A stretch of DNA of 64,000 nucleotides from Bacillus sp. NP157 (lineage in GTDB: Bacteria; Pseudomonadota; Gammaproteobacteria; Xanthomonadales; Rhodanobacteraceae), in contig CP076546.1 of the NCBI GenBank assembly GCA_018889975.1, positions 4,681,001 through 4,745,000 of the forward strand, given 5' to 3'. A program made the position numbers and the translations under genes. Below the pieces are notes generated by a model that was not told where the DNA came from, ran no database searches, and worked only from the letters and a program-made list of their open reading frames with translations. Shown one piece after another: positions 2,760 through 48,422 of this stretch; the stretch's first letter is position 1, and each line of letters opens with the position of its first letter.

Positions 2760-5273
2760 TTATTGATAGCCAAGGATAGCACGCCGCAGGTACTGGCCCG
2801 ACTGGGGGTTCAGGGAGCCCAGCCCCTTGAATTCCAGCTCGAACATGATCGCGTTGTTGGTCCGCCGGGTGTAATCCTGGACGTAGTGGCGGCCCAGGAT
2901 ACGGAAGGCGACGCAGCAGCTGTCGTATTCGACGCCCGCGGTCGCTTCCAGCGTGCGGTGGGAGAACGCGAACGAGGTGAAGTTGATGCCGTCGGCGGTC
3001 ACCGGCACGATGTCGCGGCGGGCAAACACCCAGCGCGCCAGGGCGCGCCAGCGTTCCGACACGGGGTAGACCACGGACGTGTCGAATTGTTCCATGACGT
3101 TGCGGCGGTAGCGGTACGAGAAGTTCAGCACGCCGTCGCCCTTGATCCGGCGCTGGATCTGCACCGTGGCCAGGTCGGTGTCATGGCCCTGCAGCCCGTA
3201 CTGGCCGTTGTCGGGATTGGGGTAGATGCGGGCCTTGTCGTTCGGGTTCCACTGGTACGCGCTGTTAAGCCGCCACTTGTCGTTGAGCTGGATGGCAAAC
3301 TGGGCCACGTAGTCCGACCCGTTGTAGTCGGTGGGCAGCACGCCCGGCATCTGCACTTTCTGGTCGGTCAGGTAGCGGATCTGGCCGATACCCGCCGAGA
3401 CGCGTTCCACGCCGTTGTCGTCGAGCAGGCGGCTGGTAAGCGCCAGGGTGACGTTGTTGGCGTCCATCTGGCGGTCGGCGCCGGCGAAGCGATTGGTGGT
3501 GAACAGCTGCCAGAAATCGAACGACATCTCGTTGGTGTCGAAAGCAGGCAGGTTGTTCTGGTTGCGGTAGGGCACGTACAGGTAATACAGGCGCGGCTCG
3601 AGCGTCTGGGTGTAGTCGGTGCCGAACATGCGCGTGGCGCGGTCGAAGACCAGTCCGGTGTCGAGGCTTGCGATGGGCAGGGCACGCGTCGGCGTACGGT
3701 CGGGGTAGGCCGTCTTGTCGTTGCCGTTATCCAGCTGGTAGCCGGTGAAGCGGTATTCCAGACGCGGGCGCACGAACCAGGCCGGGCCGCCGAAATCGGC
3801 GGCAAGATAGGGAGCGAGGTCGAGGCGGTTGCCGTCGATCTGACCAGGCGCCTTGTCCAGCTTGCGGAAGGCCACGGCCTCGGTGTCCGCGCCGAAATCC
3901 AGCCAGGAGTTCACGGGTACGTCGAGGTTGAACGTGGCACGCGGCCAGCGACGGTACGGTGCCACGTAGTTGGGCAGGCCGGGATCGACGTTCTGGTAAT
4001 CATCCGCGCCCAACGCGGCGCTCCAGTACTTGCCGCCCTTCGATACGTACACGCTCGAGGTCAGGATGCCTACTGCAGAGGTGTAGAGATCGTTGCCGAA
4101 GTCGCGAAAGTATTCATTGTCAGACGCACGGTTGATGTTGGCCGACAGCGTGAAGCCGTCGCCGAGCGCCGTGTTGTTCGTGATCTGGGCCAGGTAACGC
4201 TGCTTGGAGTTACCGCGGTCGCCAAACTGCGAGAAATCCGTATCCGTGCCCTTGTCGTTGCCCAGGTACTCCACGTAGAACGTGCCGTTCGACTTCGGCA
4301 GCAGGTAGCGGAATTCCGCGCCGAGCATCGGGCCGCGCTCGGTGTAGTAGCGCGGCGTCACCGTGGCGTCGTAGTTCGGCGCCAGGTTGAAATAGTACGG
4401 GATCGACAGGTACGTGCCCGAGTGGCTCGACGAGCCGAACGTCGGGTAGAGGAAGCCGCTCTTGCGCCGGTCGTCCAGCGGGAAGGTGAAATAGGGCAGG
4501 TACATGAAGGGCACGCCCTTGAAGCGCATGGTGGCGCTCCGGGCCACGCCGACGCCGGTGTCCTTGTTCAGGTCGACCGTCTTGGCGCGGAATTCCCACT
4601 GGTGCTTGCCCACGTCGCACGTGGAGTAGGTGGCCAGGCGCATGCGCCCGTGCATCGGGTCGGTCACCTTTGCGTGGTCGGCCACGCCGTTGCCGCGCGA
4701 CTGCAGCAGCTGGTAGGTGACGTTGTCGGCGTCGCCCTGGTTCGGCGTGGTGGTGCCGGTCATGCGGTCGGCACGCAGCAGCATGCCGGCTTCCTGGTAG
4801 CGCACGTTGCCCTTGGCGTCGTACGCGGTGGAGTCCGCGTTGTAGGTCACGTCCTCGGCCTGGAGCACCTGGTCGGCACGCTGCAGGCGCACGCCGCCAG
4901 TCATGTGGTAGAGGTTCGGCTCGGGTGTTTCGACCTTCACGCCCTGGGTGGCGTTGATGTTCGACACCGTGTCGGTCACCGCGGTGTCGCGCAGCGTGGT
5001 GTCCTTGGTGATGGTCGGATCGTAGAAATCCAGCATCGCGTTGGGGCTGCACTGCAGGTAGCTGACCGGCCGCGGCGCGCAGACGAAGGAGCCCAGCTTG
5101 CAGGTCTCGACTTCGGTGGCCGCGGTCGGCGAAGGCGCGGGCGATGCCGTAGGCGTGGTGCCGGCCGACGGGGTCGACTGGGCCTGGGCTTGCCAGGCGG
5201 TGGCGGAAACGACGATGGCGATGGCGCTCGCCAGCAGGCGGCGTTTAGGCAGGATGCTGATGCGAGGCGTCAC
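2760..5273 (-). CDS. lptD: LPS-assembly outer-membrane protein LptD
   Basis: LptD with LptE inserts lipopolysaccharide into the outer leaflet of the outer membrane. The protein has a signal peptide (KRRLLASAIAIVVSATAW, ending AQAQ), an OstA-like periplasmic jellyroll at about residues 80-250, and a large C-terminal beta barrel. Cysteines sit near the N-terminus (TCKLGSFVC) and as a CC pair near the end (EYDSCC), matching the disulfide pattern needed for LptD maturation. I chose the GTG at 5273 because it places the signal peptide properly at the N-terminus, giving 837 residues. An in-frame ATG at 5351, preceded by AGGGG at good spacing, would add 26 residues whose codon use looks non-coding. 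The start is therefore uncertain. Confidence 0.95.
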   Translation of the reverse strand: MTPRISILPKRRLLASAIAIVVSATAWQAQAQSTPSAGTTPTASPAPSPTAATEVETCKLGSFVCAPRPVSYLQCSPNAMLDFYDPTITKDTTLRDTAVTDTVSNINATQGVKVETPEPNLYHMTGGVRLQRADQVLQAEDVTYNADSTAYDAKGNVRYQEAGMLLRADRMTGTTTPNQGDADNVTYQLLQSRGNGVADHAKVTDPMHGRMRLATYSTCDVGKHQWEFRAKTVDLNKDTGVGVARSATMRFKGVPFMYLPYFTFPLDDRRKSGFLYPTFGSSSHSGTYLSIPYYFNLAPNYDATVTPRYYTERGPMLGAEFRYLLPKSNGTFYVEYLGNDKGTDTDFSQFGDRGNSKQRYLAQITNNTALGDGFTLSANINRASDNEYFRDFGNDLYTSAVGILTSSVYVSKGGKYWSAALGADDYQNVDPGLPNYVAPYRRWPRATFNLDVPVNSWLDFGADTEAVAFRKLDKAPGQIDGNRLDLAPYLAADFGGPAWFVRPRLEYRFTGYQLDNGNDKTAYPDRTPTRALPIASLDTGLVFDRATRMFGTDYTQTLEPRLYYLYVPYRNQNNLPAFDTNEMSFDFWQLFTTNRFAGADRQMDANNVTLALTSRLLDDNGVERVSAGIGQIRYLTDQKVQMPGVLPTDYNGSDYVAQFAIQLNDKWRLNSAYQWNPNDKARIYPNPDNGQYGLQGHDTDLATVQIQRRIKGDGVLNFSYRYRRNVMEQFDTSVVYPVSERWRALARWVFARRDIVPVTADGINFTSFAFSHRTLEATAGVEYDSCCVAFRILGRHYVQDYTRRTNNAIMFELEFKGLGSLNPQSGQYLRRAILGYQ

Positions 5274-5419
5274 GGGCGGGGTCTTGTCCGTTGCAAAGGC
5301 CGCCAACTTAGCAGAATCACCGCCTGCATCGCACGATGGCACTCCACGCATAAGCTCGAACCCCTGGCGAGGGCAGGGCGGTGATCGCCGTGCCGGTCCG
5401 CCGAGCTTACACCGCCGGG

Positions 5420-7253: not shown

Positions 7254-8464
7254 GCGAGGCCTGGAACGGCAACGAATCGACGCGTCGTCGCGGCGGCTTG
7301 CTCGACATCGCGGTGGTGGGTGGTGGCATGGTCGGTGCGGCCGCGGCGCTTGCGCTGGCGCGCTCCGGCTTCAGCGTGGCACTGGTGGATGCGCGTGAAC
7401 CCGCGGCGTGGTCGGCGGCGAATGAAGTCGACCTGCGCGTGGTCGGGCTTGCCCCGTCGTCGCTACGCCTGCTCGACGAACTGGGTGTATGGCATCGCAT
7501 CCGCGAAGCCCGCGCGTCGGCGTACGAGCGCATGGTGGTGTGGGACGCGGAGAATGGCGCCACGCTGCATTTCGACGCGGCCGACGAGGGCCGCGACGTG
7601 CTTGGCTATATCGTCGAGAACAATCTGGTCCAGGCGGTGCTGTGGCAGGCGCTGGAGGATGCCGGCGTGCGCCGCATCGTACCGGCCGAAGTGACCGGTT
7701 ACAGCATGCGCGAGGACCGCGCGCAGCTCGAACTCGCCGATGGCCAGCTATTGTCGGCCCGGCTCGTGGTCGCCGCCGACGGCGCGGAATCGCCGCTGCG
7801 CAGCATGGTCGGCATCGGTACGCAGGGGCGCGATTACGCCCAGCGTGGCGTCGTCGCCCACGTGGCCACCTCGCGGCCGCACGAGCGGACCGCGTGGCAG
7901 CGTTTCCTGCCGGGCGGCCCGCTGGCGTTCCTGCCACTGGCGGATGGCCGCAGCTCCATCGTCTGGTCGTTGCCGGAAGATGAGGCACGCCGCGTGCTCG
8001 CCCTGGACGACGATGCCTTCCGCGATGCGCTTGGCGTCGCCAGCGATTACCGGCTTGGGCCGATCGAACGGGTCACGGCGCGCGCCGCCTTCCCGTTGCG
8101 CCTGAAGCTGGCCGATCGCTATGAAGTCGGCCGGCTGGTGCTGCTTGGCGATGCCGCGCATGCGGTGCATCCGCTGGCCGGGCAGGGCGTGAACCTCGGC
8201 CTGCGTGACGTGGCCGAGTTGCGCGACACGCTGGTCGAGGCCCGCGAGGCGGGCCGCGATTTCGCCGCGACGCATGTCCTGCGCCGCTACGCACGCCGCC
8301 GGCGCAGCGCTGACGAGCTGGACGCGCGTTCGTTCGATGCGCTGGCGCGGGTCTATGCGTGGCAGGCCGCGCCGCTGGTTGCCGCGCGTGGGGTGGGGGT
8401 TCGGGTGCTCGACCGCCTCGCGCCGTTGAAGCGTCGGTTGATGCGGCACGCGGCTGGGGGTTGA
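7250..8464 (+). CDS. Second UbiH/UbiI/UbiF-family FAD ubiquinone hydroxylase
   Basis: This is a second ring hydroxylase of the ubiquinone pathway, 404 residues long. It carries VVGGGMVGAAAALALARSG at the N-terminus, AADGAESPLRSMVGI in the middle and LGDAAHAVHPLAGQGVNLGLRD as the FAD motif. The likely start is the GTG at 7250, whose last two bases form part of the ubiH TGA (GTGA overlap). Upstream in-frame ATGs lie inside ubiH and would give an implausible leader. The tandem arrangement with ubiH suggests a UbiI- or UbiF-type activity (C5 or C6 hydroxylation). Confidence 0.92.
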   Translation: MSEAWNGNESTRRRGGLLDIAVVGGGMVGAAAALALARSGFSVALVDAREPAAWSAANEVDLRVVGLAPSSLRLLDELGVWHRIREARASAYERMVVWDAENGATLHFDAADEGRDVLGYIVENNLVQAVLWQALEDAGVRRIVPAEVTGYSMREDRAQLELADGQLLSARLVVAADGAESPLRSMVGIGTQGRDYAQRGVVAHVATSRPHERTAWQRFLPGGPLAFLPLADGRSSIVWSLPEDEARRVLALDDDAFRDALGVASDYRLGPIERVTARAAFPLRLKLADRYEVGRLVLLGDAAHAVHPLAGQGVNLGLRDVAELRDTLVEAREAGRDFAATHVLRRYARRRRSADELDARSFDALARVYAWQAAPLVAARGVGVRVLDRLAPLKRRLMRHAAGG

Positions 8465-41936: not shown

Positions 41937-42212
41937 CGTCGGCGCGGGCGTGGACACGTCTTGAGTTCTCCGCCTGGAGGCCCGGCGGGCCCTCGATGAC
42001 AGCCAGTATAGGGCGCCCTCGCGAGGGGGCAACACGCGTCGGCGGCAGCGGCCCGCCGCAGCGCCCCTTTCCTTTGGGGACGCCATCCGTGAAAATACTT
42101 GGCCGTATTGTGCGGAATTTGCGCAGTTCGAGATTTCATCCCCCACACCCGTGCGGTTCCCCATGACCCGCACGCGTTCACACGCTTTTCTCCCGTTCGC
42201 TCGAGGTATCGA

Positions 42213-43373
42213 ATGAATTTCCACGAGTACCAGGCCAAAGAACTGTTCGCGAAGTACGGCATCGCCGTGCCCCCGGGCAAGGTTGCCAACTCTCCCGACG
42301 CCGCCGTCGATGCCGCCAAGCACCTTGGTGGTTCGCAGTGGATGGTCAAGGCCCAGATCCATGCCGGTGGCCGCGGCAAGGCTGGCGGCGTCAAGTTCTG
42401 CCGTAGCCTCGATGCCGTGCGCGATGCCGCCAAGGGCATGCTCGGCACCAACATGGAAACCTACCAGTCGGCTGGCCGCGCGCTGCCGGTGAACCTGGTG
42501 CTGGTGACCGACGCGACCGACATCGCGAAGGAACTGTACCTGTCGATCCTCACCGACCGCGACACCAAGTCGATCTCGTTCATCGCCTCCAAGCACGGCG
42601 GCGTCGACATCGAGCAGGTCGCGCACGACACGCCGGAAGACATCCACACCCTCGTGGTCGATTTCGTCGAAGGCCTCCAGCCGTACCAGGCGCGTGAACT
42701 CGCGTTCAAGATGGACCTGGACGGCAAGCAGGTGAACCAGTTCGTCAAGATCATGCTTGGCCTGTACAAGCTGTTCAACGAAAAAGACCTGGCCCTGGTC
42801 GAGCTGAATCCGCTCGCCATCCTCGAAGACGGCAACCTCGCCGCCCTCGACGGCAAGGTCAACTCCGACGACAACGCCGAATTCCGCCACCCGGACCTGG
42901 CCGCCATGCGCGACCTGACCCAGGAAGACGCGGCCGAAGCGGCTGCCGTGCAGCACAACCTCAACTACGTGACGATGGACGGCACGATCGGTTGCATGGT
43001 CAACGGCGCAGGCCTGGCCATGGCCACCATGGACGTGATCAAGCTGGCAGGCGGCGAGCCGGCCAACTTCCTCGACGTGGGCGGCGGTGCGACCAAGGAG
43101 CGCGTCACCGAAGCGTTCAAGCTGATCCTCTCGTCCGACAAGGTGAAGGCCATCCTGGTCAACATCTTCGGCGGCATCGTGCGTTGCGACCTGATCGCCG
43201 AAGGCATCATCGCCGCGGTGAAGGAAGTGGGCCTGAAGATCCCCGTGATCGTCCGCCTGCAGGGCACCAACGTCGACCAGGGCCGCGAGCTCCTGGCCAA
43301 CTCGGGCCTGGCGATCACGCCGGCAGACGATCTCAACGATGCGGCCCATAAGGCCGTGGCCGCAGCGGCCTGA
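42213..43373 (+). CDS. sucC: Succinate-CoA ligase (ADP-forming) beta subunit SucC
   Basis: The beta subunit binds nucleotide and succinate in the TCA-cycle enzyme that makes ATP from succinyl-CoA. The 386-residue protein starts [17 protein letters not shown] and carries the ATP-grasp fold ([19 protein letters not shown]). The C-terminal ligase domain includes [14 protein letters not shown] and [19 protein letters not shown] precedes the ATG at 42213. It is 13 bases upstream of sucD. The arrangement pilR-pilS / sucC-sucD is typical of xanthomonads. Confidence 0.98.
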
Positions 43374-43386
43374 GGAGCGAAGTAGC

Positions 43387-44259
43387 ATGAGCGTCCTGAT
43401 CAACAAGAACACCAAGGTCCTCGTCCAGGGCTTTACCGGCCAGCAGGGCACGTTCCACGCCCAGCAGGCTCTCGATTACGGTACCCAGGTCGTGGGTGGC
43501 GTGACCCCGGGCAAGGGTGGTTCCGAGCACATTGGCTTGCCGGTGTTCAACACCGTGCGCCAGGCTGTCGACCAGACCAAGGCCGATGCCTCGGTCATCT
43601 TCGTGCCGCCCCCGTTCGCCGCCGATTCGATCCTCGAAGCCATCGATAGCGGCATCAAGGTCATCGTCGCGATCACCGAAGGCATCCCCGTGCTCGACAT
43701 GATGCGCGTGAAGAACGTGCTGAAGTCGCACCCGGACGTCGTCCTCGTCGGTCCGAACTGCCCGGGTGTCATCACCCCGGGTGAGTGCAAGATCGGCATC
43801 ATGCCGGGCCATATCCACAAGCCGGGCAAGGTCGGCATCGTCTCGCGTTCGGGCACCCTGACGTACGAAGCGGTGTTCCAGACCACGAACGAAGGCCTCG
43901 GCCAGTCCACCTGCATCGGCATCGGTGGCGACCCGATCAACGGCCTGAGCTTCATCGACTGCCTGAAGCTGTTCCAGGACGATCCGCAGACCGAAGGCAT
44001 CATCATGGTTGGCGAAATCGGCGGCAGCGCGGAAGAAGACGCGGCTGAGTTCATCAGCCAGTACGTCAGGAAGCCGGTCGTGTCGTTCATCGCTGGCGCC
44101 TCGGCTCCCCCGGGCAAGCGCATGGGCCACGCCGGCGCGATCATCTCGGGCGGCAAGGGCACGGCGGAAGCCAAGTTCGCAGCCCTCGAGAAGGCAGGCG
44201 TCACCACGGTGAAGTCGCCGGCCGACCTCGGCAAGACCCTCGCCGGCCTGATGAAGTAA
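43387..44259 (+). CDS. sucD: Succinate-CoA ligase alpha subunit SucD
   Basis: The alpha subunit binds CoA and carries the phosphohistidine intermediate. The 290-residue protein has the CoA-binding Rossmann segment ([19 protein letters not shown]), the [18 protein letters not shown] stretch and the active-site histidine in [19 protein letters not shown]. It follows sucC by 13 bases and ends before a strong terminator, so the two form a closed operon. Confidence 0.98.
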
Positions 44260-44284
44260 TACCCGCTTCACCATCGGCGAAACG

Positions 44285-44314
44285 AAAAAAACCCCGCTCC
44301 GGCGGGGTTTTTTT
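44285..44314 (+). terminator. Rho-independent terminator of sucCD
   Basis: The stem AAAACCCCGC and GCGGGGTTTT encloses a short TCCG loop and is flanked by A and T runs, so it could act in both directions. Confidence 0.92.
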
Positions 44315-44372
44315 CGCCCATCACCACACCCCGTCCCCGCCTGCACGCGACCGACAATCCACGACCAGCCCC

Positions 44373-44487
44373 TGTAGGAGCGCGCCCGCGCGCGACCGGT
44401 CAATCCACAACCCGCCCCTGTAGGAGCGCGCCTGCGCGCGACCGGTCAATCCACGACCCGCCCCTGTAGGAGCGCGCCTGCGCGCGA
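44373..44487 (+). repeat. Three tandem REP units with 46-bp period
   Basis: Forward REP copies start at 44373, 44419 and 44465, exactly 46 bases apart. The intervening spacer is nearly identical each time (CCGGTCAATCCACRACC plus CGCC). A degenerate unit lies before the first (44343-44370). This is local tandem amplification, not a CRISPR. Confidence 0.88.
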
Positions 44488-45003
44488 CCGGTCAATCCAT
44501 GACCAGCAAAACGCAAGTCCCCGCCCCCCGAGCGTTATCACGGTTATCCACATGCTTATACAGCGCATGTCCACGCCCGCTGTGGATATCCCGGAAGGAT
44601 CCATGGGGAACCTCGCACGTCGTCGTCGAGGTCACGCTGGGACCGAACACAAGGACGGGCAACCTGTGTGCTTGCGACCACGTATTGACGGTGACGCGCC
44701 TGGTCAGTGTCACGAAAATGCGGGGCGGCGAGTGAGCGACGCCCGGCGGTGCCCTACGCCGATATCCACAACCCGTGTGGATACCCGATGCATAACCCTG
44801 TGAATAACTCCCGACACGCGTTCGCCGACAGCCACTTGCGTTGTGCTGGTCAATCCATGCGCAGCGCGGTCTCGACGCACTTATCGATATCCACAGGCCG
44901 TGTGGGTATCGCCTGCATAACCGTGTGGATAAGTCGCATCGGGTGAGCGGTGACAACCACTTGCATCATGCTGGTTATTGGGTGACCACATCGCTGAAGG
45001 CTG

Positions 45004-45137
45004 TCGCGCGCAGGCGCGCTCCTACAGAACGACGACTGCCGGTGAGACGAACCTGTAGGAGCGCGCCTGCGCGCGACCCCCGATATCCACAGGCACCCGA
45101 TGTGCCGTTGCCCCTGTAGGAGCGCGCCTGCGCGCGA
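45004..45137. repeat. Three REP copies inside the DnaA-box array
   Basis: An inverted copy (45004-45026) and forward copies (45054-45076 and 45115-45137) lie between units three and four. The 45082-45105 fragment of a DnaA-box unit lies between the two forward copies, which suggests duplication of a REP plus unit segment. Confidence 0.85.
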
Positions 45138-45260
45138 CCCCCGATATCCACAGGCAATGTGGGTATCGCCTGCATAACCGTGTGGATAAGTCGCATCGGG
45201 TGAGCGTCGACAACGACTTGCGTCATGCTGGTTATTCGGTGACCACATCGCGAAAGGCTT

Positions 45261-45334
45261 TCGCGCGCAGGCGCGCTCCTACAGAAAGACCACTGCCAGG
45301 TGAGACGAACCTGTAGGAACACGCCTGCGCGCGA
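45261..45334. repeat. REP pair inside the DnaA-box array
   Basis: An inverted copy at 45261-45283 is followed by a degenerate forward copy at 45312-45334. The same order and the same spacer (GTGAGACGAACC) occur at 45004-45076, so the whole segment is a duplication. Confidence 0.8.
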
Positions 45335-45738
45335 TGCCCGATATCCACAGCGTGTGTGGATACCTGCTGCATAAGCATGTGCATAACTCGCAACGGGCTT
45401 TCACCGACAACGACTTGCGTTGCACTGGTCAATGCTTGCCCAGCACCGCGTCGACGAGTCAGTCGATATCCACAGGGGATGTGGGTATCAACTGCATAAC
45501 AGTGTGGATAAGTCTCGTCTCACACGTTGCGACAAGGACTTGCGTTGTGTTGGTTATTGACTGACCACGCCACGAATGTCGCACCTGGGATCGCACCTAC
45601 GCAACACAGGCATCGGCCTACCTGTATCAGCGGTCTGCGCCGATCCTTTGAACGACGTGGCCAACCCATCCTGTCCGGAGATTCGTTCGCCGGGAGAAGG
45701 GCGGCGGTCGATCCCGCCGTGAAATCGGAGAACAGTCA

Positions 45739-46476
45739 ATGCTTCGCTATGAAACCAAGGGGCCCGTCTCGGCACACATGGGCGACGAGTTGTCTCTGAT
45801 GCTTGGAGGCGCGAAGCCGCTTGCAGTCTTTGCCCAGGAAGCCGGGATGTCTCGGTCCGCCGTAGTCCCCGCAGGGTTCGATGCCGCGGTCAAGCAACGG
45901 CGCCTCGTTGCGATGACTGTTGAGATGCTCAAGCCGGGATACGCGAGCCACTACTTTGCGCTTCCTGATGAAGCGTGGCGCCTACGGATCATGCGGTCAT
46001 ACGGCGAACTGGGCGCGATGTCCCCGGGTGGCGGTGATCTGGCGTTCAGCCGGTTGGAGCATCAACTGTTCCTCGGCTACATGTTGGGGTACGCCGAAGA
46101 AGACACGCACGCCTTCGTAGGTCGGAATGCTCTTCGCATGCACGGCGAGGGGATGCTGAGTGCGGAGGACATGGCGCCCTACATAGCACCGCTGGCATCG
46201 ACCACCGGCCGCCGTATTGCAGTAGGGAACGTCGACTCGGTCGGGCAGATCGGCGGACGGATCGTGCTTCGTACGGGTCAGTCGATGGCGTTGTCCGTTA
46301 GTCCGGGGGAGCAGTGGCGTGCGAAGGCCGTGGCATCGGCCCTGGATGGGGTCGCGGTATGGAAAGGCGATGCAGCTTCGCGCGCTGATGTTGTTCGCTT
46401 GCTCGAATTTCTTATCCAGCCCGACGGCGATGAGGTCGAGATCCTGATAGCGTGGGCTGAGCAAACGGTGCCCTGA
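45739..46476 (+). CDS. Hypothetical protein downstream of the DnaA-box array
   Basis: The 245-residue protein starts MLRYETKGPVSAHMGDEL after GGAG, eight bases before the ATG at 45739. It has no signal peptide or clear membrane helix. The N-terminal part (ELSLMLGGAKPLAVFAQEAG) and the centre (FSRLEHQLFLGYMLGYAEED) are probably helical. The C-terminal part from about 155 (TTGRRIAVGNVDSVGQIGGRIVLRTG) looks like beta strands. Codon use is less GC-biased than in the neighbours, suggesting acquisition. I do not recognise a family and cannot assign a role. Confidence 0.72.
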   Translation: MLRYETKGPVSAHMGDELSLMLGGAKPLAVFAQEAGMSRSAVVPAGFDAAVKQRRLVAMTVEMLKPGYASHYFALPDEAWRLRIMRSYGELGAMSPGGGDLAFSRLEHQLFLGYMLGYAEEDTHAFVGRNALRMHGEGMLSAEDMAPYIAPLASTTGRRIAVGNVDSVGQIGGRIVLRTGQSMALSVSPGEQWRAKAVASALDGVAVWKGDAASRADVVRLLEFLIQPDGDEVEILIAWAEQTVP

Positions 46477-46503
46477 AGCAAGGCAGCGATCCGTCGTACG
46501 TGA

Positions 46504-47256
46504 TCACTGAGCGGGCAGGTTCCAGCTATCGCGCAGGCGGGCGTACTCGGTTTTCGGCAGCAGCACGAACACGGGGTTCTTCTTTGGGTCGAGCCATGCG
46601 AGCAGGCGCTCCATCGTGGCGTCGGCCATCGCGGTGCAGCCTGCGGTGCCGGTGGTCGGCGTGCGCCACAGGTGGGCGAAGATGCAGCTGCCCTGGCCTT
46701 TCTTGCCGTCGGGGTTGTGTTCGATGACGAAGCCGATGCGATAGGCGTGGTCGCCGTTGAAGTGCAGGTCGCGGCGCATCGGTTCGGTGGCGCCCTCGAC
46801 CGCTTTCGCACCGACCTTGTCGGCGTCGATGAGTTGGTTGTAGTACGGCGAACCGTCGACGTCGACGCAGTAGTCGGATGCGGTCAGGCCCGTGTATGGC
46901 AATGCCGTCGGGTTGTTCTCCGCGTAACCGAACGCCTTGCCGATGCGGAACACGCCCGCGGGGCTGCGCCCGTCACCTTCCTTCTTCTGCGGTCCGTTCG
47001 CCTGCGCGGGGCTCAGGCCCACGCCCCATGCGCTGCCCTGCTTGCCGATAGTCACCGGCGACGGGTCGCCGACGGCCTTCCAGGCTCCGCCTTCGCGAAC
47101 GTAGGTGCGCAGGGTGCCGAGATTCGCATCCCAGCCATCGGTGGTGACCACGACCATCTGCCGCGAGACCGACCACGCGGCGGGCGCCTGGAACGCGCCT
47201 GCCGAAGCGGTGAGCGAAAGGGCGAGCAAGCCGGCGAGGCGGGGCAGGATGGCCAT
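46504..47256 (-). CDS. L,D-transpeptidase (YkuD) family periplasmic protein
   Basis: The 250-residue protein has a signal peptide (ILPRLAGLLALSLTASAGAF) and a YkuD-type catalytic domain. The conserved His is in SCIFAHLWRTP and the Cys in the motif GTAGCTAM (family form S/T-x-G-C). Related enzymes form 3-3 crosslinks or cut and anchor at meso-diaminopimelate. It is the last gene of a run of four minus-strand genes concerned with murein peptides, 74 bases after the epimerase. Confidence 0.9.
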   Translation of the reverse strand: MAILPRLAGLLALSLTASAGAFQAPAAWSVSRQMVVVTTDGWDANLGTLRTYVREGGAWKAVGDPSPVTIGKQGSAWGVGLSPAQANGPQKKEGDGRSPAGVFRIGKAFGYAENNPTALPYTGLTASDYCVDVDGSPYYNQLIDADKVGAKAVEGATEPMRRDLHFNGDHAYRIGFVIEHNPDGKKGQGSCIFAHLWRTPTTGTAGCTAMADATMERLLAWLDPKKNPVFVLLPKTEYARLRDSWNLPAQ

Positions 47257-47330
47257 GGGACACTCCAGTCAAAAGAGATTCACGTCCGCGCCGTTTCGCC
47301 ATTCGGGCGCGACACGATCCGGACGGCTCG

Positions 47331-48422
47331 TTACAGCGCTTCCACGCCACGCACGCTCCGGATACCCAGGCCCGGCGCGTCCGCGATCGAGATGACCGAC
47401 TCGTCGAACGTCACCGCACCATCCACCGGATCGTAGGCGCACAGGGAAGGTCCGTCGAGGTCGACCCGCGTGATCACGTCGGCCCGCGCCACGGCGACGT
47501 GCACGGCGGCCGCCACGCTGATGCTCGACTCCAGCATGCAACCCATCATGCATTCGACCCCGTGTAGGCCGGCGATGTCGGCGATCTTCAGCGCACGGGA
47601 AATGCCACCGGCCTTCATCAGCTTGATGTTGACGATATCCGCCGCGCGCATCCGGATCAGCTCGATGACCTCCATCGGCCCGAACACGCTTTCGTCGGCC
47701 ATCACCGGCGTCTGCGTGCGTTCGGTGACATAGCGCAGGCCCTCGAGGTCGTGTGCCTTCACCGGCTGTTCTACCAGCTCGAGCACCACGCCGGCCTGTT
47801 CGAGCGCGAGCAAGGCCCGCACCGATTCCTTCGCGGTCCAGCCCTGGTTCGCATCCAGTCGAAGCGCCGCGCGGTCGCCCACGGCCGCATGGATCGCGCG
47901 GACGCGGTCGATGTCGACGCGGATGTCCTTGCCGACCTTGATCTTCAGCGCGGTGAAGCCGCGTTCGACGGCCGACATCGCGTCGGCGACCATCTTGTCG
48001 ATGTCGTCCACGCTGATGGTGATGTCGGTGCGGATCGACGGCTGGCCGCCACCGAGCAGCTGGTAGAGCGGCGCGCCATGGAGCTGGCCCCACAGGTCAT
48101 GCACCGCGATCTCCACGGCGGCCTTCGCACTGGTGTTGCGCGCGATCGACGCCTGGATGATGCCGGTGATCCGGTTGAGGTCCGCAATGTCTTCGCCGAT
48201 CAGCCGAGGCGCGATGTAGTGGCGGATGGCGTCGACGATGGAGCCGTGCGTATCGCCGGTGATCACGGCGGTAGCCGGCGCTTCACCATGACCGACGCGG
48301 CCGTCGTCGGTGTGCACCATCACGACGATGTCTTCGATGCTTTCCACGGTACGCAGGGCGGTCTTGAACGCGGTCCTCAAGGGGACGCGCAACAGGCCGA
48401 GGCGGATATCGGTGATCTTCAT
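47331..48422 (-). CDS. Dipeptide epimerase (L-Ala-D/L-Glu epimerase), enolase superfamily
   Basis: This enzyme epimerises the D-Glu residue of the murein dipeptide L-Ala-D-Glu so that it can be degraded. The 363-residue protein has the muconate-lactonising-type fold with catalytic lysines in LKIKVGKD and IKLMKAGGI. The metal ligands are in RLDANQGW, LELVEQPV and VMADESVFG. These match the Ala-Glu epimerase subgroup (YcjG/YkfB). Its position between cell-wall hydrolases supports that substrate. Confidence 0.93.
   Translation of the reverse strand: MKITDIRLGLLRVPLRTAFKTALRTVESIEDIVVMVHTDDGRVGHGEAPATAVITGDTHGSIVDAIRHYIAPRLIGEDIADLNRITGIIQASIARNTSAKAAVEIAVHDLWGQLHGAPLYQLLGGGQPSIRTDITISVDDIDKMVADAMSAVERGFTALKIKVGKDIRVDIDRVRAIHAAVGDRAALRLDANQGWTAKESVRALLALEQAGVVLELVEQPVKAHDLEGLRYVTERTQTPVMADESVFGPMEVIELIRMRAADIVNIKLMKAGGISRALKIADIAGLHGVECMMGCMLESSISVAAAVHVAVARADVITRVDLDGPSLCAYDPVDGAVTFDESVISIADAPGLGIRSVRGVEAL

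Follow-up and report, generated by a model that had tools for sequence, protein, structure and literature searches.

A mid-replichore array of DnaA-box repeats in Luteibacter with a DARS2-like architecture

What might an array of DnaA boxes do far from the dnaA gene of a bacterial chromosome? The question is raised by a 64,000-bp stretch of DNA, here called the window (positions 4681001-4745000 of the 4.875-Mb single-contig genome deposited as Bacillus sp. NP157, whose genus is Luteibacter). In it, an intergenic array (window positions 44486-45569) consists of six ~105-bp units, one of them inverted, and lies 894 kb from dnaA (genome positions 3831572-3832918). An initial annotation of the window proposed a DnaA-titration or replication-timing locus. 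Here, we report that a DnaA-based replication-control locus is well supported at the sequence level by box grammar, genus-wide conservation, recurring syntenic places, and mid-replichore position, and that, by analogy with Escherichia coli, the array is probably a multicopy site like DARS2 (DARS, DnaA-reactivating sequence), which would reactivate ADP-DnaA, rather than a datA site or a plain titration site.

Results

The six units hold 24 box-like 9-mers in 1.1 kb. The DnaA box TTATNCACA has seven perfect matches in the window, six of them within the array (0.32 expected, standard deviation 0.65; seven reached in 0/100 shuffles), which bears out the six units and six perfect boxes first described. 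The near-box GATATCCACA also matches seven times, always within the array (0.03 expected; seven reached in 0/100 shuffles); the earlier count of seven is right, but one of them (45082) is stray and truncated, part of a duplication that resembles repetitive extragenic palindromic (REP) elements, and a seventh unit at that place was rejected. Across the whole genome, TTATNCACA occurs 26 times versus 30 for the reversed control; single DnaA boxes are not enriched genome-wide, and their clustering is the unusual feature.

Four DnaA boxes make up the 48-bp core of a unit: A (forward), a 5-bp gap, B, a 2-bp gap, C, a 3-bp gap, and D, the last three in reverse. The core mostly reads NTATCCACA-N5-TGTGGATAN-N2-NNTGCATAA-N3-TGTGGAYAA (four 9-mers), with box B being TGTGGGTAT in window units 3, 4, and 6. 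Cores were aligned from 20 loci (75 cores, one doubtful with a score of 29), and a second alignment held 39 cores. The ungapped core matrix is blind to gap changes, which the core profile R1 permits; in near-full-length R1 core matches, checked by eye, the bases spanned equalled the model positions. The spacing said to be conserved within the unit is indeed a fixed register, broken in unit 1 by a 1-bp spacer deletion.

Boxes A and B are thus opposed across 5 bp, as are boxes I and II of DARS. The pattern ATCCACA-N{0,30}-TGTGGAT occurs at 10 places in the whole genome (reversed-pattern control, 0). The gap is 5 bp in four of them, 4 bp in one, and 17 bp in another, which overlaps a gap-5 place; the remaining four are A-to-D distances within cores. 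Three of the 10 fall outside cores, at two sites (3423181/3423193 and 4076666). The first, TTATCCACA-N5-TGTGGATAA without a full core (G000:C1:3423191-3423213, G000 being the window genome), stands directly upstream of a priA-like open reading frame (ORF). The second, with gap 4 (G000:C1:4076666-4076683), is near an argS-like ORF ~245 kb from dnaA, with a further TTATGCACA at 4076840. Both gene names were recognised from the translated ORFs alone.

A review describes the head-to-head placing of boxes I and II as an essential hallmark of DARS that differs from the layout at oriC (PMC10380432). In E. coli MG1655, DARS1 reads TTATCCACT-N5-TGTGGATAA-N3-TGTGTATTA. DARS2 reads TTATTCACC-N5-TGTGGATAG-N3-TGTGAAGAA, followed by two IHF-like sites 3 bp apart and one exact match to the Fis consensus, used as quoted in PMC4585315. 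In the stretch read (L070), the DARS2 core spans 5136-5170, the IHF matches (within one mismatch) 5229-5241 and 5245-5257, and the exact Fis match 5281-5295. From their order and the published 3-bp distance, we took these matches to be IBS1-2 and FBS; in the published description of DARS2, boxes I and II of a three-box core are opposed, IBS1 and IBS2 are separated by 3 bp, and FBS2-3 lie beyond (PMC8682772, PMC4245941). Both IHF and Fis are required by DARS2 and activate it (PMC4245941).

Like the unit, DARS2 is intergenic and has opposed boxes with a 5-bp gap, then a tandem box, with IHF and then Fis sites downstream (in the unit, an IHF-like motif and a Fis-consensus site); at 0.41 of the replichore, it is placed like loci I and III described below. 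It differs in length (455 bp [PMC4245941] versus 105 bp) and in having three core boxes with gaps 5/3, where the unit has four with gaps 5/2/3. DARS1 has the same A/B pair and lies at 0.66 of the replichore, near the position of locus II; reportedly it needs no protein factor (PMC4585315), unlike the unit with its proposed aid from Fis and IHF. The row B-2-C-3-D matches the tandem spacing of 2 or 3 bp that E. coli DnaA prefers in vivo (PMC11317965, section 5), and we count it for the DARS reading.

The second part of the unit, whose conserved motif had been noted before, is real: a tail in fixed register 22-56 bp past the core in 122 units of the genus. These are distinct units from 43 loci in 22 of 23 genus genomes, chosen by the core alone; they mix paralogues and orthologues and are not independent samples. 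The set excludes a core scoring <45 (L084 9517), L025 (same place as L077), and L104-L112 of other genera, together with cores lacking flanks (G006, 80% complete; single cores of G001, G003, G011, G012, G016, G017, and G022; two of G020). Several tail columns are nearly invariant (T76 122, T77 121, T81 122, G88 122, A92 119, and C102 121 of 122). The Fis consensus GNNYANNNNNTRNNC is exact at positions 88-102 in 98/122 units, with 11 exact matches at all other offsets combined, a sequence-level counterpart of the Fis site downstream of the DARS2 core; the stricter GNTYAN5TRANC fits there in 71/122. Positions 69-78 keep the IHF core CA-N5-TTR (C69 121, A70 103, R78 120). The guess that the tail may bind a second protein fits these motifs, the candidates being Fis and, less firmly, IHF, which we call only a likely binder because neither strand gives a good fit to its full consensus, WATCAANNNNTTR. 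Of the 23 genus genomes, 22 encode a homologue of E. coli Fis (39-43% identity), the exception being 80% complete.

Mean pairwise column identity in the 122 units is 0.92-0.99 for boxes, 0.42-0.50 for gaps, 0.89 for the IHF-like columns, 0.79 for the Fis columns (0.29 at the Fis centre), and 0.27-0.28 for flanks. Columns outside the proposed sites, namely 48-66 (0.43) and the non-IHF part of 67-86 (0.53), are more alike than the flanks, and T81 within them is invariant.

This order of elements bears on a datA-like site, which would promote ATP-DnaA hydrolysis with IHF. E. coli datA resembles the unit in being non-coding and in combining DnaA boxes with IHF, and the array has both DnaA boxes and an IHF-like motif. 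datA, however, relies on boxes 2 and 3 flanking its one IHF site, and the excerpts of PMC4585315 and PMC10380432 list no Fis site; here, the IHF-like motif has all four boxes to one side and is followed by a Fis-consensus site. In the stretch of E. coli datA that was read, opposed boxes come no closer than a 3-bp gap, and datA lies at 0.20 of the replichore. We regard a datA-like site as very unlikely.

A core-pattern scan of named genomes returned 22 stretches, 21 from Luteibacter and one from a Geobacteraceae metagenome-assembled genome. By blastn, the 105-bp unit was found in its own genome and 22/22 congeners and in 0/38 other genomes; this understates its spread because profile R1 reaches weaker cores in other genera. 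The search of related genomes suggested at the outset found R1 cores in 23/23 genus genomes (3-10 listed matches each, of which two, in G021 and G012, are short reverse-strand overlaps and one, in G019 at 23.5 bits, is weak). Searches over >40 genomes used stricter filters. They gave weaker cores in 50/135 other genomes of the family (E value ≤0.001; 62/147 counting 12 genus genomes drawn) and matches in 17/144 other genomes of the order (E ≤1e-4; 23/150 counting 6 genus genomes). In the class, 6/321 matched (E ≤3e-4); besides the window genome and two others of the order, there were three partial matches, one of which (L114) is a row of tandem boxes. Many family and order matches are near the limit and may be due to chance. 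Nine loci among the weaker matches (L104-L112) and seven from the class search were read. In another genus of the family (g13), the cores of L104 (8183-8944 and 13089-13756) and L108 (8932-9138) are degenerate (GTTTTCCACAGCGAATGTGGATGC...) and their tail differs; four of those in L104 recur at a ~206-bp period beside one canonical copy at 8297. In genus g12, L105 and L106 each have three units at a ~171-bp period with a core one base shorter and the Fis consensus in most units inspected.

Given 3-10 listed copies in each genome, spread over several places of which some are peculiar to a single genome, and given REP-like palindromes among the units of the window, the unit might be an ordinary mobile or repeat element (REP-like or resembling a miniature inverted-repeat transposable element) that happens to carry DnaA boxes. 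Conservation, however, tracks the protein sites and not the whole unit, and many loci are shared in synteny. Blastn against 50,697 phage and 72,556 plasmid records gave no match; a phage or plasmid origin was rejected on this ground, and an ordinary mobile or repeat element seems very unlikely. The initial annotation had named random scattering across loci as grounds for doubt: the unit is multi-locus, with some places occupied in a single genome, but a few intergenic places recur and account for most copies.

Three such places stand out. Seven genus genomes (G000, G002, G004, G007, G010, G013, and G018) have locus I, that of the window, with the sucD neighbourhood on one side and cluster c14 on the other. 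At locus II, present in 13 genus genomes and one of another genus (G123), the neighbour on one side is a miaA-like gene with hflX-like, Band_7, and purA-like genes after it; on the other side it is a peptidase S46 gene in 11/13. Locus III is around a pgk-like gene in five genus genomes, four of which also have an acyltransferase gene there. Four more places are common to two genomes each, and others occur in one genome.

Control of neighbouring genes, with DnaA as a transcriptional regulator, must be weighed against these places. E. coli DnaA does bind upstream of genes and regulate them (PMC11317965, section 5), and locus II units lie upstream of the miaA-hflX-like gene row. Nonetheless, the unit occupies >8 different intergenic places across species, and wherever locus I is present in relatives of the window genome (six of them), its flanking genes are convergent; we consider such a role very unlikely.

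All 17 loci placed in nine single-contig genomes lie mid-replichore, at 0.32-0.78 of the replichore, the terminus being taken as the midpoint rather than located (the 14 other genus genomes are multi-contig). Locus II is at 0.61-0.78 in five of these genomes and loci I and III are at about 0.4. Cores run with the replication fork in 47/58 cases; of the 11 exceptions, 10 belong to locus III and one is the inverted window unit. No P value is given for positions because orthologous loci are not independent. A copy of oriC was rejected: no core is found at the dnaA locus, and the array does not sit there.

Position also bears on the main rival, DnaA titration, in which the boxes would merely soak up DnaA, as proposed for clusters in E. 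coli and Bacillus subtilis. A cluster as dense as this one should bind DnaA, and deletion of six B. subtilis clusters led to early initiation (PMC13220808). Those clusters are like the arrays in that several lie outside oriC and affect initiation; they are set apart by description, being oriC-proximal by the cited title and with no opposed-pair grammar or Fis/IHF tail mentioned in the excerpt (PMC13220808). Titration needs neither an opposed pair at a fixed 5-bp gap nor a tail in register. Boxes in E. coli are enriched near oriC (PMC12371093, section 6), whereas the nearest of the 17 loci here is 712 kb from dnaA, and titration alone is therefore disfavoured. We judge it unlikely as the explanation, although it could act together with reactivation.

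Relatives of the core were found in Geobacteraceae, in 16/48 genomes (R1, E ≤0.001, one match each). Twelve of the 16 loci were read (L124 and L126-L136), some from genomes that look closely related: in 11/12, a single four-box core lies in an interval between mazG-like and murJ-like genes, while L131 has no clean core and neither gene was found there. In L048, an ogt-like ORF is also inside the mazG-murJ interval. The Fis consensus, searched as a site only, is exact at position 87 or 88 in 8/12 loci, and the IHF consensus is matched within one mismatch at 121-123 in 8/12. The tail matrix scores in the top 1% of the own locus in 9/12 and marks the best place in four, apparently close relatives; it ranks 1255 of 5968 in L124, the first found, 502 of 5964 in L131, and 369 of 5970 in L134. 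In the first Geobacteraceae unit, the match of the whole-unit profile R2 is confined to positions 2-53.

The features of the array are collected in Table 1. It is bounded by a sucD-like ORF (ending at 44259) and an ORF starting at 45739, which had no Pfam match. Six ORFs of 83-154 amino acids inside or overlapping the array were taken as spurious, since they use both strands and run over the repeats. REP-like palindromes (CTGTAGGAGCGCGCCTGCGCGCGAC and near copies) occur in both orientations at window positions 44372-44488 and 45003-45334, three at a 46-bp period ahead of the array and five among the units. An RNA element was rejected, there being no Rfam match at the gathering score in window positions 42000-48000.

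Table 1. Units and associated features of the array (window positions)
Feature	Position	Strand	Core	IHF-like CA-N5-TTG	Fis-consensus site	Remark
Unit 1 (inverted)	44486-44590	-	44543-44590		44490-44504	1-bp spacer deletion
Unit 2	44761-44865	+	44761-44808	44829-44838	44848-44862	
Unit 3	44886-44990	+	44886-44933	44954-44963	44973-44987	Fis-consensus site GGTTATTGGGTGACC
Box grammar, unit 3	44887-44932	+				A 44887-44895 (+), gap 5, B 44901-44909 (-), gap 2, C 44912-44920 (-), gap 3, D 44924-44932 (-)
Stray GATATCCACA	45082-45091	+				Within REP-like duplication; truncated copy, not a unit
Unit 4	45143-45247	+	45143-45190	45211-45220	45230-45244	
Unit 5	45340-45444	+	45340-45387	45408-45417	45427-45441	
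Unit 6	45465-45569	+	45465-45512	45533-45542	45552-45566	

Discussion

The initial proposal of a DnaA-based timing locus survives in its general form, and the anatomy favours DARS over titration or datA because the A/B pair with its 5-bp gap corresponds to boxes I/II and the tail carries Fis-consensus and IHF-like elements as in DARS2. Reactivation of ADP-DnaA is the function we infer since the head-to-head pair is characteristic of DARS, and IHF and Fis activate DARS2. In the proposed mechanism, each 105-bp unit would assemble a small DnaA oligomer, with two molecules head to head on boxes A and B and a head-to-tail row on B, C, and D. Fis, and probably also IHF, would bind the tail and introduce a bend that stabilises the oligomer. 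If contact between the head-to-head molecules works as in E. coli DARS, ADP-DnaA would release its ADP, and the apo-DnaA would take up ATP, so that more ATP-DnaA would be available when oriC next initiates. How much reactivation occurs, and when, would depend on copy number and mid-replichore position. That DnaA, Fis, and IHF bind, that ADP is released, and that timing is affected are all predictions here, from sequence and analogy.

Several points weigh against this interpretation. The box after B follows at 2 bp in the unit (with D at 3 bp after C), whereas it follows at 3 bp in DARS, and the unit has a fourth box; the core-to-Fis distance is 86 bp, compared with 145 bp in DARS2. E. coli has two DARS, while the genus genomes have 3-10 listed units, often in arrays, and the neighbours at loci I-III (sucD, miaA, and pgk) differ from those of DARS1 (bioD-uvrB) and DARS2 (rppH-mutH). 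Profiles of the core (R1, E up to 10) and whole unit (R2, E up to 1) gave no match to the E. coli DARS1, DARS2, and datA loci (L070-L072); for this reason, we call the unit DARS-like and not a DARS orthologue, the likeness being architectural, in geometry and composition. The Fis consensus is a permissive one: if one mismatch is tolerated, 116/122 units match at offset 88, yet 115 match at offset 19 and 41 at offset 42 as well, both in the core. The tail palindrome reaches one base further on each side (T87 118 and A103 111 of 122) and therefore could serve another dimeric protein. The full IHF consensus is a weak match, exact in 0/122 units and within two mismatches in 44 (+) or 49 (-). Spacer 48-66 has above-background identity although it lies outside the proposed sites, and in Geobacteraceae, the better IHF match comes after the Fis-like site.

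How new the site is depends on the level at which it is described. One paper holds that conservation of the DARS2 core is specific to gamma-proteobacteria related to E. coli (PMC4245941), and a later review reports DARS1-like and DARS2-like sequences across many species of proteobacteria (PMC10380432); the kind of site is therefore already known, and the tandem multicopy form is a variant of it. The earlier statement that such an array had not been described in this group is uncontradicted: the titles and abstract openings listed for DnaA boxes, DARS2, or oriC in Xanthomonadaceae, Luteibacter, Geobacter, and Xanthomonas, with subscription literature mostly outside that scope, yielded no description of one. 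More tentatively, the unit could be one form of a composite DnaA-Fis-IHF control element that predates the split between the Luteibacter and Geobacteraceae lineages, single copy between mazG and murJ in Geobacteraceae and amplified mid-replichore in Luteibacter, where unit number would act as a dosage dial for ATP-DnaA regeneration; we offer this as a speculative possibility, the alternative being that the grammar evolved separately in the two groups.

DARS have been worked out in E. coli, in two sites of different layout acting together. Here, a 105-bp unit has been kept and multiplied in one genus, with 122 natural variants showing which bases matter, and the array makes the copy number of a reactivation site testable. 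The Geobacteraceae relative would allow the DnaA switch to be tested in another group. If the units are DARS-like, Fis, and perhaps IHF, would be tied to the timing of initiation far from the enterics.
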